A DNA stretch of 43,357 nucleotides from a virus. Shown one piece after another: positions 15,886 to 24,419 of this stretch. The notes below the pieces were generated by a model, which was given only the letters and a program-made list of their open reading frames with translations, did no database searches and had not been told where the DNA came from. Location: the IMG/VR virus record IMGVR_UViG_3300047443_000159, positions 1-43,357 of that record. The stretch is one strand, 5' to 3'. A program made the position numbers and the translations under genes. Position 1 is the first letter of the stretch. Every line of letters starts with the position of its first letter.

Positions 15886-16004
15886 GAACTCGCCTGGTCA
15901 GAGCGTCCGGATTCCTGGGTATCGCTGCTGGCAGCCGCGTTGACCTGCTCCTCCGCCGGCTGCTCAAAGTCGATCTTGCGGAACTGCTTGTTCATGTTCT
16001 TCAT
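15882..16004 (-). CDS. 40-residue ORF translationally coupled to the integrase
   Basis: The ATG shares one base with the integrase stop (TGATG). The peptide begins MKNMNKQFRKIDFEQPAEEQ and ends acidic/Ser-rich (SGRSDQASS). About four fifths of codons end in G or C, like the neighbours, which favours a real gene. A basic start and acidic, Gln-rich middle give no family. Position suggests a helper of integration or excision. The stop lies inside the CTCTAG cluster. A second ATG three codons in is an alternative start. Confidence 0.5.
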   Translation of the reverse strand: MKNMNKQFRKIDFEQPAEEQVNAAASSDTQESGRSDQASS

Positions 16005-17371
16005 CAGGACTCTTCGAAGATCGGAACCCTGCTGAACTGCTGCGATGGTATCAACCGCTGATCATCTGGGAGAGGAATGGGAAAAGGCGGCGTCCACCAC
16101 GGCCCAGAAGCCCAGAAATCGACCCACCGCTCTTGCAGATAATCGACGATACGCCGCTCCATCGCCGGCGTGACGTAGCTGTACGTGCCCTCGACACCCG
16201 GCAGCTCGTGCCCCATGCGACCCTCGATCGCGACGCGCGGGATATTGCCCGGCTCGTCCAGGACCTCCTTGTGCCAGTGCCGCAGCCGGTAGATGTCGTG
16301 ACCGTCCATGGCCTCGACCGGGAGGAGCATCGGCCGCTCATAACCGCGGCGTGCACTCCGCTCCGGCGAGCCGTCCCGGATGGGCCGCCAGTAGTCCCGG
16401 GCGAACTGGGTGGACAGCAACGACCGGCCCGTCAGAGAGGTGAACACCCACGGCGAATCGTGGGACGCCAGCAGGGCCGTGTGCATCTCGTGCAGGAACG
16501 GAGGGATCGCGAGCGTCCGGTAGCTGTCGTACTTGGGGGGCGCGAGCACCGGCCCGCCGCCGACGCGGTACAGCTGATGCTGCACCCGCAGCGCGGGCAT
16601 CGCCGCATACCGCTCCAACGCCTCCTCGCGGCGCTCACGGTCCGGGTCGGTGGCCGGCCAGTTCGGCGACGCGTACCCGCGCTGGAGGCCGCGCGTCTCG
16701 CCCGGCGGCCGCATCCCGGTGAAGGCAATCGTCCAGATGTACGTCCAGCCCGTGAAGCCCCAGACGTGGTACGCGTTGGTGGCGAGGTGGTGCACGACCT
16801 CCATCGGCATGGCGCGCTTCTTCACCCGCCGCGTCTTCTTCTTGTACCTGCCGCGCCGGCGGTGCTCGATGATCGGGGACTCGGGCCGCATCTTGTACTT
16901 GAGGACGGCGTCCTCCATGAGCATGCGGAACAAGCCGAGGATCTGGGAAGGGTAGGTGCCCTTGTACTTGGCTTTGACCTGCTTCTTCCAGGCGTCGTAT
17001 TCCAGCGCGGTAATGGCGCCGACAGGCCGCATCTCCCAGTAGGGGACGATGACGGCGTTGAGGATGGACCGGTAAGTCTTTATCGAGTTCGGCAGCAGCT
17101 CGTCAGCGGTCTCGAACCATTCCCAACAGTACTTCCCCATAAGGGTGTTGGCGTCGACGCGGCGTATGGCCTTGCCGTGGCGCCGGTCGTGCTCACGGTC
17201 GAGGCCGAAGTTATAGGCCTCTTCCTCGTCCTCGAAGGGAATGCCGGGCTCGGGGCCGCTGGCGCTCTCGTATTTCTTCTTGTTCGTCTTGTTGCCTTCG
17301 GCATCGAGTATGTACTCGCCGCCCCACCATTTGACGCGGATACTGCCTCCGCGCCGTTCTATGTATGGCAT
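16004..17371 (-). CDS. int: Tyrosine recombinase (phage integrase)
   Basis: 455 residues. The N-terminal part (about 1-75) is an arm-type binding region with a basic beta hairpin (GGSIRVKWWGGEY); residues 80-170 are the core-binding helices; the rest is catalytic. Visible residues are Arg221 in FTGMRPPGE, Lys280 in APPKYDSYRTL, Arg364 in YRLRHWHKEV, His388 in EGRMGHELPG and Tyr397 in GTYSYVTP. The first His of the HxxR box is replaced by Tyr361, a change tolerated in some families. It joins attP to a host attB for lysogeny. ATG 17371 has GAGGG upstream on its strand. A 15-bp hairpin precedes it and a 40-codon ORF is coupled behind it. Confidence 0.92.
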   Translation of the reverse strand: MPYIERRGGSIRVKWWGGEYILDAEGNKTNKKKYESASGPEPGIPFEDEEEAYNFGLDREHDRRHGKAIRRVDANTLMGKYCWEWFETADELLPNSIKTYRSILNAVIVPYWEMRPVGAITALEYDAWKKQVKAKYKGTYPSQILGLFRMLMEDAVLKYKMRPESPIIEHRRRGRYKKKTRRVKKRAMPMEVVHHLATNAYHVWGFTGWTYIWTIAFTGMRPPGETRGLQRGYASPNWPATDPDRERREEALERYAAMPALRVQHQLYRVGGGPVLAPPKYDSYRTLAIPPFLHEMHTALLASHDSPWVFTSLTGRSLLSTQFARDYWRPIRDGSPERSARRGYERPMLLPVEAMDGHDIYRLRHWHKEVLDEPGNIPRVAIEGRMGHELPGVEGTYSYVTPAMERRIVDYLQERWVDFWASGPWWTPPFPIPLPDDQRLIPSQQFSRVPIFEES

Positions 17372-19363: not shown

Positions 19364-19702
19364 GTGAGCACCCAGATTACCGAGCAGCACGAGCGCCTGA
19401 TGGCCGCGCTGTCCGCCGCCGAGCATCTCGTCTCGCTGGCCCCCGTCGCCCCGTATACCGTCGACATCACCCACCACAGCACCTTCCCCGCCGGGACGCT
19501 CGGTGTGGAGCTGCACTTCCATCACGCTCCGGCAAGCCTCACCGCGTTCGCGGACACGATGGGCGTCGAGGTCGTCAAATCGCCGCAGGAGTTCGGCGGG
19601 GCTGGCTTCATCGAGACCACGGTGTCGGGGGACCTAGACGGTGTGCCGTTCCGGGCGTGGACGCGCATCGCGGCTGTGGCTGTTGTCGAGGTGGCGGCGT
19701 GA
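19364..19702 (+). CDS. Unknown early protein
   Basis: 112 residues, GTG start with strong AAGGAGG upstream. Helical N-terminus (LMAALSAAEHLVSLAP), then strands with a His-rich phrase (VELHFHHAPASLTAFADTM) and a beta C-terminus (IAAVAVVEVAA). No known motif. It begins the coupled chain 19364-22893; the end overlaps the next GTG. Confidence 0.65.
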   Translation: MSTQITEQHERLMAALSAAEHLVSLAPVAPYTVDITHHSTFPAGTLGVELHFHHAPASLTAFADTMGVEVVKSPQEFGGAGFIETTVSGDLDGVPFRAWTRIAAVAVVEVAA

Positions 19703-20274
19703 CGGGCTCGTCCCCGGCCCCGACGGATATCGAGCGGGCCGCGATCAAGGAGGGGTACCGCGCGCTGATCCGCGCGAAGTCCCCGACGTCGCACCTGGTG
19801 GAGCTGGTGGTGTTCGGGCTCAGCAAGGTCGGGATGCTGGCGTCGCCGGAGACGGCGGCCGTCGCGGCGGTCCAGCGGCGGGTGGGCTACGAGGCAGCCA
19901 TCGAGGTCATGCGCAGCGAGAAGCTGCCGATGTCCGTCGGCTTGCTGGAAGCCCAGCTGGAGCTGGACAAGCTCGACGGGCTGACGCCCTCGGAGGTCAC
20001 GGTCTACCGCGCCTCGCACGACTCGATCGTCTTCGGCCTCTACACCACGGCGCAGGCGGCCCGCGAGCACTGCGAGGCCTACGCCCGCCGCGAGCACGTC
20101 GGCCCCAGCGAGCTGAAGCTCTGGTGGCGCGAAGACGAGGACACCGTCAACCAGCCCGAGGAGGGCGAGGCCGAACTCATCGAGAGCACGGCCCCCGGCT
20201 ACGCCCGCCCGACCGGCTACGTCGTGACGCCGCTGACCGTCGCCTCCGCGTACGACCCGGAGGTGGACGAGTAA
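19699..20274 (+). CDS. Unknown early protein
   Basis: 191 residues, GTG at 19699 overlapping the previous stop by four bases. The N-terminal 60 residues are helical (IERAAIKEGYRALIRAKSPT), a middle part has AIEVMRSEKLPMSVGLLEAQ, and the C-terminus is acidic (WWREDEDTVNQPEEGEAEL). It is followed by a TAATG junction with the topoisomerase-like gene, so the two may be made in equal amounts. No family recognised. Confidence 0.65.
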   Translation: MTGSSPAPTDIERAAIKEGYRALIRAKSPTSHLVELVVFGLSKVGMLASPETAAVAAVQRRVGYEAAIEVMRSEKLPMSVGLLEAQLELDKLDGLTPSEVTVYRASHDSIVFGLYTTAQAAREHCEAYARREHVGPSELKLWWREDEDTVNQPEEGEAELIESTAPGYARPTGYVVTPLTVASAYDPEVDE

Positions 20275-21188
20275 TGGCCCTCATCACCTACGTTCCGAAG
20301 AAGTTCAGCGCGGCCAGCCTGGACCTGATCGCGACCGCCGCCAGCATCTGCCGCTCGTACGCCGAGCAGGGCTACGACCTCACGCTGCGCCAGCTGTACT
20401 ACCAGTTCGTCGCACGCGGCTACCTGGCGAACAAGCAGACCGAGTACAAGCGCCTGGGGAGCATCGTCAACGACGCGCGCCTGGCCGGCCTGCTCGACTG
20501 GAACTACATCGTCGACCGCACCCGGAGCCTGCGCGGCCTGTCCCACTGGGACGACCCGGAGTCCATCATCCGGTCCGTCGCGTACGGCTACCGCACCGAG
20601 CGTTGGTCCACCCAGCCCTACCGCGTCGAAGTGTGGATCGAGAAAGACGCCCTGGTCGGTGTGATCACCGGGGTCTGCCAGCGCAACGACGTCGACTACT
20701 TCTCCTGCCGTGGCTACACCTCCCAGTCCGAACTGTGGGGCGCCGCCCAGCGGCTGAGCCGGTACGAACGCAAGGGCCAGAAGCCGATCATCATCCACCT
20801 CGGCGACCACGACCCGTCTGGCGTCGACATGACCCGGGACATCCAGGAGCGCCTGGAGCTGTTCGGCGCGGACGTCGACGTCCGCCGTGTCGCGCTGAAC
20901 ATGGACCAGGTCGAGGAGCACCGGCCACCGCCCAATCCCGCCAAGCTCACCGACTCCCGCGCGGTCGGCTACATCAGCCGGTACGGGCAGAGCAGTTGGG
21001 AGCTGGACGCCCTTGAGCCGTCCATGCTCGACCAGCTCATCGAGGACCAGATCTGGGCCTACCGCGACGTCGACCTGTGGGACGAGGCCACCACCGCTAT
21101 GGAGCGCGAGCGCTCCCTGCTCGAAGCGGTCTCGGCCCGCTGGGACGACGTGGCGCGGCTCGTCGCCGAGGACGGTGAGCGTCCGTGA
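20274..21188 (+). CDS. Orphan topoisomerase VI A / Spo11-like protein (Toprim)
   Basis: 304 residues, ATG in a TAATG junction. Residues 36-80 look like the winged-helix 5Y-CAP domain of Topo VI A/Spo11: LTLRQLYYQF with candidate catalytic Tyr42 or Tyr43, followed by TEYKRLGSIVNDARLAGLL. Residues 117-185 are a Toprim fold with Glu123 in VEVWIEKDAL and Asp178/Asp180 in IIIHLGDHDPSG, the metal site. About 300 residues is at the short end of Topo VI A. No B subunit (GHKL ATPase) is encoded in this genome. It matches orphan A-type proteins described in mobile elements as Mini-A. It might nick or cut DNA for replication or recombination. Confidence 0.8.
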   Translation: MALITYVPKKFSAASLDLIATAASICRSYAEQGYDLTLRQLYYQFVARGYLANKQTEYKRLGSIVNDARLAGLLDWNYIVDRTRSLRGLSHWDDPESIIRSVAYGYRTERWSTQPYRVEVWIEKDALVGVITGVCQRNDVDYFSCRGYTSQSELWGAAQRLSRYERKGQKPIIIHLGDHDPSGVDMTRDIQERLELFGADVDVRRVALNMDQVEEHRPPPNPAKLTDSRAVGYISRYGQSSWELDALEPSMLDQLIEDQIWAYRDVDLWDEATTAMERERSLLEAVSARWDDVARLVAEDGERP

Positions 21189-22597: not shown

Positions 22598-22893
22598 CGC
22601 GCCCCAAGCTGGCCACCACTAGCCAGAAGGCCGCCGCCAAGAAGGCAAAGCAGGCCTGGAACGGCGGCAAGGTCGGCACCCCCGCCACCCCCAAGGACAC
22701 CCCGACGCCCGGCCAGTGCGCCAAGACGGGCTGCGGTGACCTCTCCTTCGCCGCCCGCTCGGACCTCGGCCTGGTCCGCATCGAGGTCGACGGCTCCCGC
22801 GAACCCGCCCGCTGGTACTGCCCCGGCCCGTGCGCCGGCTACGGCCAGGCCCTCGCCGAGATCCGCGCCATCCCCACCGCAGCGAACGAATAA
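22594..22893 (+). CDS. Small basic Cys-containing protein
   Basis: 99 residues, ATGA-coupled. A Lys-rich N-terminus (SQKAAAKKAKQAWNGGKVG) and a Cys-containing C-terminal half (GQCAKTGCGDLS, RWYCPGPCAGYG). The cysteine pairs suggest a zinc ribbon. It lies just before the exonuclease. Unknown function, possibly DNA binding. Confidence 0.6.
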   Translation: MTRPKLATTSQKAAAKKAKQAWNGGKVGTPATPKDTPTPGQCAKTGCGDLSFAARSDLGLVRIEVDGSREPARWYCPGPCAGYGQALAEIRAIPTAANE

Positions 22894-22906
22894 GGAAGGA
22901 GCCTGC

Positions 22907-23698
22907 GTGATCGCCACCGGCAACGACGAGTACAGCCAGACCCTCGCTGAGCGCATCGGCCAGTTCATCATCGACTCCGACGCCAACAGCGCCCGCAGCC
23001 AGCAGACCGCCATCGGCCCCAGCGAGGTCGGCGAAACCTGCGAGCGACAGCTCTCGTACAAGATGCTCGACTGGCCGGAGAGCAACACCAACCGCGACCC
23101 CATCGCCGCGATCATCGGCACCGGCTTCCACATGTGGATGGCCGAGAAGTTCGAGGCCCGCAACGTCGACGGCCGGTACCGCATCGAGGAACGCGTCACC
23201 GTCCGCGAGGGCTACACCGACGCCGCCACCCTCGCGGGCAGTGCCGACCTCTTCGACCGCCTCACCGCCCTCAACTACGACTGGAAGCTTGTCGGCACCT
23301 CCAGCCACGACAAGTACCGGCGCGGCGGCCCCGGCGACAAGTACCGGATCCAGGCTCACCTGTACGGGCTCGGCCAGGAGAACGCCGGCCAGGCCCCGAA
23401 GCGCGTCGTCGTCGTCTTCGTAGCCCGCTACCACGAACTGAAGGTCCACGTCTGGTCCGAGCCCTACGACCGGCAGGTGGCCCTTGACGCGCTCGCCCGG
23501 CTCGACCGCATCCGCGAGCGGCTCATGGACCTCGACCCCGAGGCCAACCCGGAGCGCTGGCACCAGATCCCCACCCCGGAGAAGCCGAACTGCCGGTTCT
23601 GCGCCTTCCTCAAGCCCGGCAGCACGGACCTGACTGCCGGCTGCCCGGGAGGCCAGTCCACGAACGCGGGCGCCTCCCTCCAAGCCCTCATCGCCTGA
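22907..23698 (+). CDS. PD-(D/E)XK exonuclease, Cas4/RecB-like, with Fe-S cysteines
   Basis: 263 residues, GTG 22907 with AAGGAAGGA upstream. The nuclease motifs are His75 in GTGFHMWMAEKF, Asp114 in AGSADLFD, Asp125-x-Lys127 in YDWKLVG and Gln149-x3-Tyr153 in RIQAHLYG. Cys45 together with Cys229, Cys232 and Cys246 gives the one-plus-three pattern of Cas4/AddB-type 4Fe-4S clusters. It would resect DNA ends to expose single strands. The SSB-like gene follows, so the two likely form a recombination pair. Confidence 0.87.
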   Translation: MIATGNDEYSQTLAERIGQFIIDSDANSARSQQTAIGPSEVGETCERQLSYKMLDWPESNTNRDPIAAIIGTGFHMWMAEKFEARNVDGRYRIEERVTVREGYTDAATLAGSADLFDRLTALNYDWKLVGTSSHDKYRRGGPGDKYRIQAHLYGLGQENAGQAPKRVVVVFVARYHELKVHVWSEPYDRQVALDALARLDRIRERLMDLDPEANPERWHQIPTPEKPNCRFCAFLKPGSTDLTAGCPGGQSTNAGASLQALIA

Positions 23699-23765: not shown

Positions 23766-24419
23766 ATGACAACCCCGCAGCAGTACAAGGCCCCCACCGC
23801 CGACGACTTCCTCATGGGCGGCGGCGGTGCACCCACCGCCAAGTTCGCGGCGCCCGGAGCGTCCGTCGGCGGCCGCATCACGGAGAAGCCGACCGTCGAG
23901 CAGCAGCGCGACATCTCCACCGGCGAGAAGAAGTTCTGGTCGGACGGCAACCCGATGATGCAGCTCGTCGTCACCGTGCAGACCAACGAGCGGGATCCGG
24001 AGGTCGAGGACGACGACGGCAAGCGCCGCATCTTCGTCAAGGGCCAGATGAAGCAGGCCGTCGCCGACGCGGTCCGCGCCGTGGGCGGCCGTGGCCTGGA
24101 GCCCGGCGGAACGCTCACGGTGACGTACTCCCACGACGGGGAGGTCAAGCAGCGCGGATTCAACCCGCCCAAGCAGTACCGGGCCCAGTACGTCCCGGCT
24201 GCCACGGTGGCCCTGCACACCCCGGACCCGGCCACGCAGCCCCAGCAGTACGCCGCACCGCCGCAGCAGTACGCGCCCCCGGCGGCCGCGCCGATCGCCG
24301 TTCCCGGCCTGACTCCGGAGCAGCTGGCCGCCGCGCTGGCCAACCCGGCGACCGCCGCGCTGCTCCAGCAGCACCAGGCCGCACAGCCCGCCCCGGCCGG
24401 GGACGTCCCGCAGTTCTGA
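23766..24419 (+). CDS. SSB-like single-strand DNA-binding protein
   Basis: 217 residues. Residues 1-140 appear to be an OB-type domain (ASVGGRITEKPTVEQQRD, PMMQLVVTVQTNERDP, GGTLTVTYSHDGEVKQRG). Then comes a Pro/Gln/Ala-rich flexible linker with AAPPQQYAPP repeats and a tip GDVPQF that resembles the SSB tail binding partner proteins. Lying between exonuclease and primase-helicase supports a replication/recombination role. An annealase is the alternative. Confidence 0.7.
   Translation: MTTPQQYKAPTADDFLMGGGGAPTAKFAAPGASVGGRITEKPTVEQQRDISTGEKKFWSDGNPMMQLVVTVQTNERDPEVEDDDGKRRIFVKGQMKQAVADAVRAVGGRGLEPGGTLTVTYSHDGEVKQRGFNPPKQYRAQYVPAATVALHTPDPATQPQQYAAPPQQYAPPAAAPIAVPGLTPEQLAAALANPATAALLQQHQAAQPAPAGDVPQF

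Follow-up and report, generated by a model that had tools for sequence, protein, structure and literature searches.

A phage-encoded Mini-A protein keeps the active site of Spo11 and topoisomerase VI A and is an optional extra in replication systems also found without it

Introduction

In meiosis, chromosomes are cut by the enzyme Spo11. It has an A-type cleavage core without a canonical ATPase B subunit (PMC11302465), and works with a B-like partner and many accessory proteins. In topoisomerase VI of M. mazei, the A subunit (Top6A) carries the nucleophile Y106, the metal ligands E202, D254 and D256, and an Arg-Glu clasp (R102-E342) that restrains cleavage; the change E342Q makes the enzyme cleavage-prone, and mutation of the latch (residues 44-67) abolished relaxation (PMC13040014). 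MksG/JetD of the Wadjet system is a Top6A-related Toprim protein that acts as a dimer nuclease in conflict with mobile DNA; it has no winged-helix catalytic tyrosine and works with an SMC complex (PMC10123090). Topoisomerase VIII, a type IIB enzyme of mobile elements, carries an ATPase part.

Closest to the protein described here is Mini-A, which was named in 2020. Two reviews name it (PMC7614492, PMC8185306), and Pseudomonas phage NP1 is given as an example (PMC7614492); in the literature searched, no activity has been demonstrated for any Mini-A. Here we analyse a Mini-A encoded on a 43,357-base linear viral contig from IMG/VR, hereafter the window. To the existing description we add the assignment of Tyr43 as predicted nucleophile, an invariant putative clasp, a missing latch, the lack of a fixed partner over hundreds of loci, and two comparisons of elements with and without Mini-A.

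Results

The window encodes a Mini-A protein

The gene encodes 304 amino acids, and its ATG overlaps the stop codon of an upstream 191-codon open reading frame in a TAATG (Table 1). An earlier note on this DNA had reported this reading frame and coupling together with the motif T37-L-R-Q-L-Y42-Y43 and the residues E123, D178 and D180; all lie where it placed them. Pfam and NCBIfam give the protein no name, and PHROG 6247 ('DNA topoisomerase') matches it over 292 residues (3.4e-111). Phages (76 records) and plasmids (43 records) carry homologues, among them an archaeal plasmid protein labelled Topo Mini-A by its depositors. Others come from viral contigs, several hundred in number, and from genomes across many bacterial phyla; an archaeal Mini-A used as query against the viral contigs gave no match. 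The PHROG match, the phage and plasmid homologues, and the identity of Y43, E123, D178 and D180 in all 238 core homologues place the motif beyond chance, and confirm the note's reading of the window protein as an intact relative of Spo11 and topoisomerase VI A with a full active site.

The protein combines a winged-helix tyrosine and a Toprim site in one Top6A homologue; it is shorter than Top6A, with its tyrosine at residue 43 as compared to mostly 94-111, and has no fused ATPase; and it is encoded by a mobile element, as are its homologues in phages and plasmids. It shares 46.3% identity with the NP1 Mini-A over 93% (E 2e-76), and the two agree in length, conserved residues, phage origin and lack of a B subunit, with no distinguishing difference. 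A C-terminal motif has been said to set Mini-A apart from topoisomerases VI and VIII; in their C-terminal part the window and NP1 proteins share SWELDAL, where archaeal Top6A has KSEQQAL. By active site, length, mobile-element origin and similarity to NP1, the window protein is a Mini-A, as had been suggested: a kind already known, of which this is a new member, from an actinobacterial phage.

Several other Mini-A loci have features of their own. In 31 plasmid records of Streptomyces and Kitasatospora, the gene lies closer to plasmid ends than a uniform spread would give (one-sided KS p about 0.001; the records are non-independent and some are non-linear), and one of these genes adjoins a plasmid-borne DNA polymerase III beta clamp gene. 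The 8.8-kb archaeal plasmid P-7H_11 (L090, LC711082) has a single large gene besides Mini-A, whose 427-amino-acid product has no convincing family match. In Flavobacterium phage FPSV-S8 (L351; 22.5 kb, only 30 annotated features), Mini-A lies near a divergent helicase-exonuclease pair.

Table 1. Features of the window around the Mini-A gene, with the residues discussed in the text
Feature	Position	Strand	Basis or remark
Probable tyrosine integrase (temperate phage)	16004..17371	-	Weak similarity to one Mini-A locus; family by eye
191-aa protein	19699..20274	+	Translationally coupled (TAATG); not a conserved partner
Mini-A protein (Topo VI A/Spo11-like), 304 aa	20274..21188	+	ATG start
Winged-helix (5Y-CAP) part, residues about 12-83	20307..20522 (approximate)	+	TLRQLYY like archaeal Top6A TLRELYY; AlphaFold2 helices H13-31, H38-47, H55-70
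Arg39 codon, equivalent of Top6A Arg102 (clasp)	20388..20390	+	238/238
Tyr43 codon, predicted catalytic tyrosine	20400..20402	+	238/238; Y42 varies
Toprim part, residues about 116-206	20619..20891 (approximate)	+	hhalign (weak); model strands E116-122, E141-144, E170-176, E202-206
Glu123 codon, Toprim metal ligand	20640..20642	+	238/238
Asp178-His179-Asp180 codons, Toprim DxD	20805..20813	+	D178 and D180, 238/238
Glu243 codon in WELDAL, probable Top6A Glu342 equivalent (ExxAL)	21000..21002	+	238/238 core; by motif
PD-(D/E)XK (Cas4-like) exonuclease, PHROG 1674	22736..23698	+	Start codon provisional
Conserved 217-aa protein, PHROG 1911	23766..24419	+	
Primase-polymerase with D5/P4-type helicase, 851 aa	24510..27065	+	

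The predicted fold matches topoisomerase VI A over the whole chain

An AlphaFold2 model of the window protein, computed with 57 window and viral homologues, reached a mean pLDDT of 89 and a pTM of 0.76. Searching the PDB with this model returned a single entry at E <= 0.001, M. mazei topoisomerase VI captured in its cleavage state (9o0g; probability 1.00, E 5.9e-5). Both of its A chains matched, in alignments of 302-304 columns that span the whole length of the protein; a viral fold library gave no informative match to the model. The earlier note had staked its reading on such a structural match, and one was found over all 304 columns. The TM-score of the model against 9o0g is 0.47 and the rmsd 7.6 A. 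We read the low TM-score as reflecting differing domain angles, which would be compatible with a hinged two-domain protein but is not proof of one.

In profile searches for the 5Y-CAP and Toprim domains, which the note had proposed, Pfam TP6A_N and TOP6A-Spo11_Toprim were each detected, weakly, in 2 of 26 Mini-A members, and no direct sequence-profile match of the window protein to topoisomerase VI A was found. In hhalign, E123 and D178/D180 line up with the Glu and DxD of Top6A, with a weak score and a poor probability. Because the sequence profiles are weak, the topoisomerase VI A identity is carried by fold and motif.

The active site and a putative clasp are invariant

The Mini-A active site resembles that of Top6A and is conserved within the family: firstly, the LTLRQLYY of Mini-A corresponds to STLRELYY in archaeal Top6A; secondly, the motifs follow in the same order, with 80 residues from Tyr to Glu in Mini-A as compared to about 96-100 in archaeal Top6A, and 55 as compared to 52 from Glu to DxD; thirdly, in an alignment of 252 sequences (238 core homologues and 14 divergent members of plasmid or genome type), R39, Y43, E123, D178, D180 and E243 are identical in every core homologue. 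The earlier note had named both Tyr42 and Tyr43 for the catalytic-tyrosine segment. Tyr42 is replaced by Phe, His or Ala in 17 of the 238 core homologues, and by Trp in some divergent ones, whereas Tyr43 shows no variation in the alignment; Tyr43, and not Tyr42, is therefore the predicted nucleophile. Loss of both tyrosines, which the note had named as evidence against its reading, was not found in any homologue.

The Mini-A equivalents of the M. mazei residues are thus Y43 for the nucleophile, E123, D178 and D180 for the metal ligands, and R39 for the clasp arginine, which lies four residues ahead of Tyr43 at the same spacing as R102 and Y106. Glu243 is the probable equivalent of Top6A Glu342, a correspondence drawn from the ExxAL motif. 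Four of the 14 divergent members have Gln at this position, within TQAEAL or VQAEAL (L093, L095, L337 and L348, from Streptomyces plasmids and one actinobacterial genome). Since the same change renders M. mazei Top6A prone to cleavage, this subgroup may, by analogy, be naturally hyperactive.

Mini-A lacks the latch, and the record encodes no B subunit

The predicted nucleophile falls at residue 26-48 in 90 Mini-A homologues, as compared to mostly 94-111 in archaeal Top6A, which puts the start of Mini-A close to residue 64 in the M. mazei Top6A sequence. Mini-A accordingly lacks the N-terminal segment and the greater part of the latch. The N-terminal part of Spo11 and Top6A also helps to bind the B subunit. 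Consistent with the earlier note's statement that the genome has no B subunit, neither Topo-VIb_trans (PF09239) nor HATPase_c (PF02518) was detected in the record, a linear contig that may be incomplete, and control genomes were positive. The GHKL ATPase and transducer of a topoisomerase VI B subunit are thus absent from the record as it stands. Topoisomerase VIII unites A and B parts, usually fused; the window protein has only 304 amino acids and its record no ATPase. Mini-A therefore resembles M. mazei Top6A in whole-chain fold, tyrosine, Toprim Glu, DxD, and clasp Arg and Glu, but is about 60 N-terminal residues shorter, comes with no Top6B in its record, and has very low sequence similarity to it. 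With neither the N-terminal segment and latch nor an encoded GHKL ATPase, ATP-driven strand passage by Mini-A is unlikely.

These observations bear on the main rival to the reading that we prefer (see Discussion), namely that Mini-A is an ATP-independent topoisomerase that cuts phage DNA transiently to relax or unlink it, without B-driven strand passage. The clasp and a seemingly religation-competent active site are kept, replication genes are its company, and DNA relaxation in the absence of ATP is reported for the topoisomerase VIII from Microscilla marina (PMC7614492). We nevertheless consider this rather unlikely, since the latch that topoisomerase VI needs for relaxation (PMC13040014) is missing and no ATPase is encoded in the record.

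Mini-A has no conserved neighbour

The earlier note had proposed the 191-amino-acid protein as a possible partner of Mini-A, and had asked whether it is a constant neighbour. No homologue of it was found at any of 289 other Mini-A loci (some with short flanks, some redundant), and its sole other match, a weak one, is in Streptomyces phage Chymera. This absence rules it out as a conserved partner. A partnership confined to this genome, with the protein as a phage-specific regulator of Mini-A, as its overlapping TAATG start might suggest, seems very improbable given the same absence; a single-sequence model of the protein was too poor to judge by.

Nor did other genes accompany Mini-A consistently. 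In a clustering of predicted genes from 242 deduplicated loci, the commonest neighbour family, an SNF2-type helicase, occurred at 35, and among 16 close relatives no neighbour family was common to more than four. No conserved partner was found within 8 kb of Mini-A, with gene calling crude enough that rare small partners could escape. Large genes near Mini-A at about 50 diverse loci encode mostly helicases, primases, DNA polymerases and ribonucleotide reductases; the profile scan behind this statement put unrelated proteins into a single alignment, solely so that all could be scanned at once, and lacked a random-gene control, and so shows the company that Mini-A keeps rather than function or co-evolution. 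Of the B-like partner and accessory proteins with which Spo11 works, none has a conserved counterpart at Mini-A loci.

A single, optional gene with changing neighbours is also what a weapon might look like, that is, an endonuclease related to the Wadjet nuclease JetD and directed against host DNA, rival elements or defence systems. Two relatives of the window protein show weak, Toprim-only similarity to JetD models (E 0.001-0.005). Against this, Mini-A keeps an invariant catalytic tyrosine and clasp, while MksG/JetD lacks the 5Y-CAP tyrosine (PMC10123090); the window protein has no PADLOC match, to JetD or otherwise; no SMC gene was seen among the common neighbour families; and the neighbours are mostly replication genes. 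We judge this explanation improbable.

Replication cassettes occur with and without Mini-A

In the window, Mini-A lies in a rightward run with the PD-(D/E)XK exonuclease and the D5-type primase-helicase, which makes the earlier note's 'early replication operon' a fair description; GC skew of the window gave no origin signal. Arthrobacter phage Judy carries the exonuclease, the 217-amino-acid protein and the primase of the window (35%, 39% and 46% identity), with no Mini-A in that cassette region. Relatives of the primase occur in 331 phage records, of which 223 are Mycobacterium, as compared to 76 for Mini-A, where Mycobacterium is outside the ten commonest names. The Judy cassette marks the role of Mini-A as accessory.

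A second comparison comes from small Paenibacillus elements. Like a filamentous phage, a 15-kb circle of Paenibacillus durus that carries Mini-A encodes a Zot ATPase and numerous coat-like proteins with a single membrane span. Its sister L329 shares the block next to the P. durus Mini-A, along with a 75%-identical stretch of ~550 bases that is mostly non-coding, but carries no known Rep and no Mini-A, either in the element or in the rest of its host genome; the two stretches that flank the P. durus Mini-A are only 216 bases apart in L329. By these two comparisons, Mini-A is an optional extra in replication systems that also occur without it.

The earlier note had suggested that Mini-A may start replication, and these elements speak to that idea, in which Mini-A would act like a rolling-circle Rep, cutting the origin and providing a 3' end that can be extended as a primer. 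P. polymyxa pPpR313 and the contig L328 encode a 434-amino-acid replication initiation protein in the interval where their P. durus relative has Mini-A, no Rep was recognised among the P. durus proteins tested, and the P. durus Mini-A adjoins the conserved non-coding region. L329 manages with neither of the two, however, and so weakens the case for Mini-A as initiator of the P. durus element; the Judy cassette and the far wider distribution of the primase weaken the general case likewise. Both comparisons thus speak against Mini-A as an obligate initiator. Initiation by Mini-A is, in our view, highly doubtful.

The wider group to which these circles belong (L091 (NZ_CP009289, 1-15151), L311, L328, L329 and L330) is a Paenibacillaceae family of 12-15 kb filamentous-phage-like elements that encode a Zot ATPase and have exchanged their replication blocks; Rep_1 or Rep_trans proteins occur in some relatives. 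Common to the elements without a known Rep is a protein of 109-124 amino acids with a C-terminal NPAGFLRRAI-type motif (L329, 13153-13527; L091, 7906-8235). This may be a small replication protein and, as a guess, a better initiator candidate than Mini-A in the P. durus and L329 elements.

Discussion

The reading that we favour, with a probability of roughly 0.5, is that Mini-A is an optional accessory: an ATPase-free, clasp-controlled cleavage enzyme that would form a 5'-phosphotyrosine intermediate and help replication or recombination. Mini-A would act as a stand-alone homodimer of the topoisomerase VI A/Spo11 type, in which Tyr43 of each subunit attacks DNA with the aid of Mg2+ held in the partner's Toprim site (E123, D178, D180). 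The 5' end left by a nick or double-strand break would thereby be joined to the protein, a 5'-tyrosyl chemistry predicted from the conserved residues. The analysis shows homology, active-site conservation, the lack of a conserved partner and optional presence; of the features inferred from these (dimer, cleavage chemistry, clasp control and biological role), the chemistry is well supported. The Arg39-Glu243 clasp would hold the tyrosine off any DNA that is not yet suitably bent or supercoiled, and cleavage would for that reason be rare and reversible rather than nuclease-like. Such controlled cuts in replicating phage DNA could be used by the neighbouring exonuclease and recombination proteins, or could relieve topological stress; between these uses, controlled breaks for recombination are our first choice. 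As a tentative possibility, Mini-A may be a Spo11-type double-strand-break enzyme that acts wholly by itself, needing neither an ATPase nor a B-like partner nor any fixed accessory, as a plug-in gene that starts recombination on the mobile elements' own replicating DNA.

With a cleavage core and putative clasp that are invariant over hundreds of sequences from many bacterial phyla, and with the B subunit, the latch and a fixed partner all missing, Mini-A appears to be the simplest natural version of the Spo11/topoisomerase VI machine. Two pairs of elements that differ in its presence (P. durus and L329; the window and Judy) are ready material for learning what Mini-A adds, and the protein itself is attractive for asking whether such a core alone can cut, seal or sense the bending of DNA.
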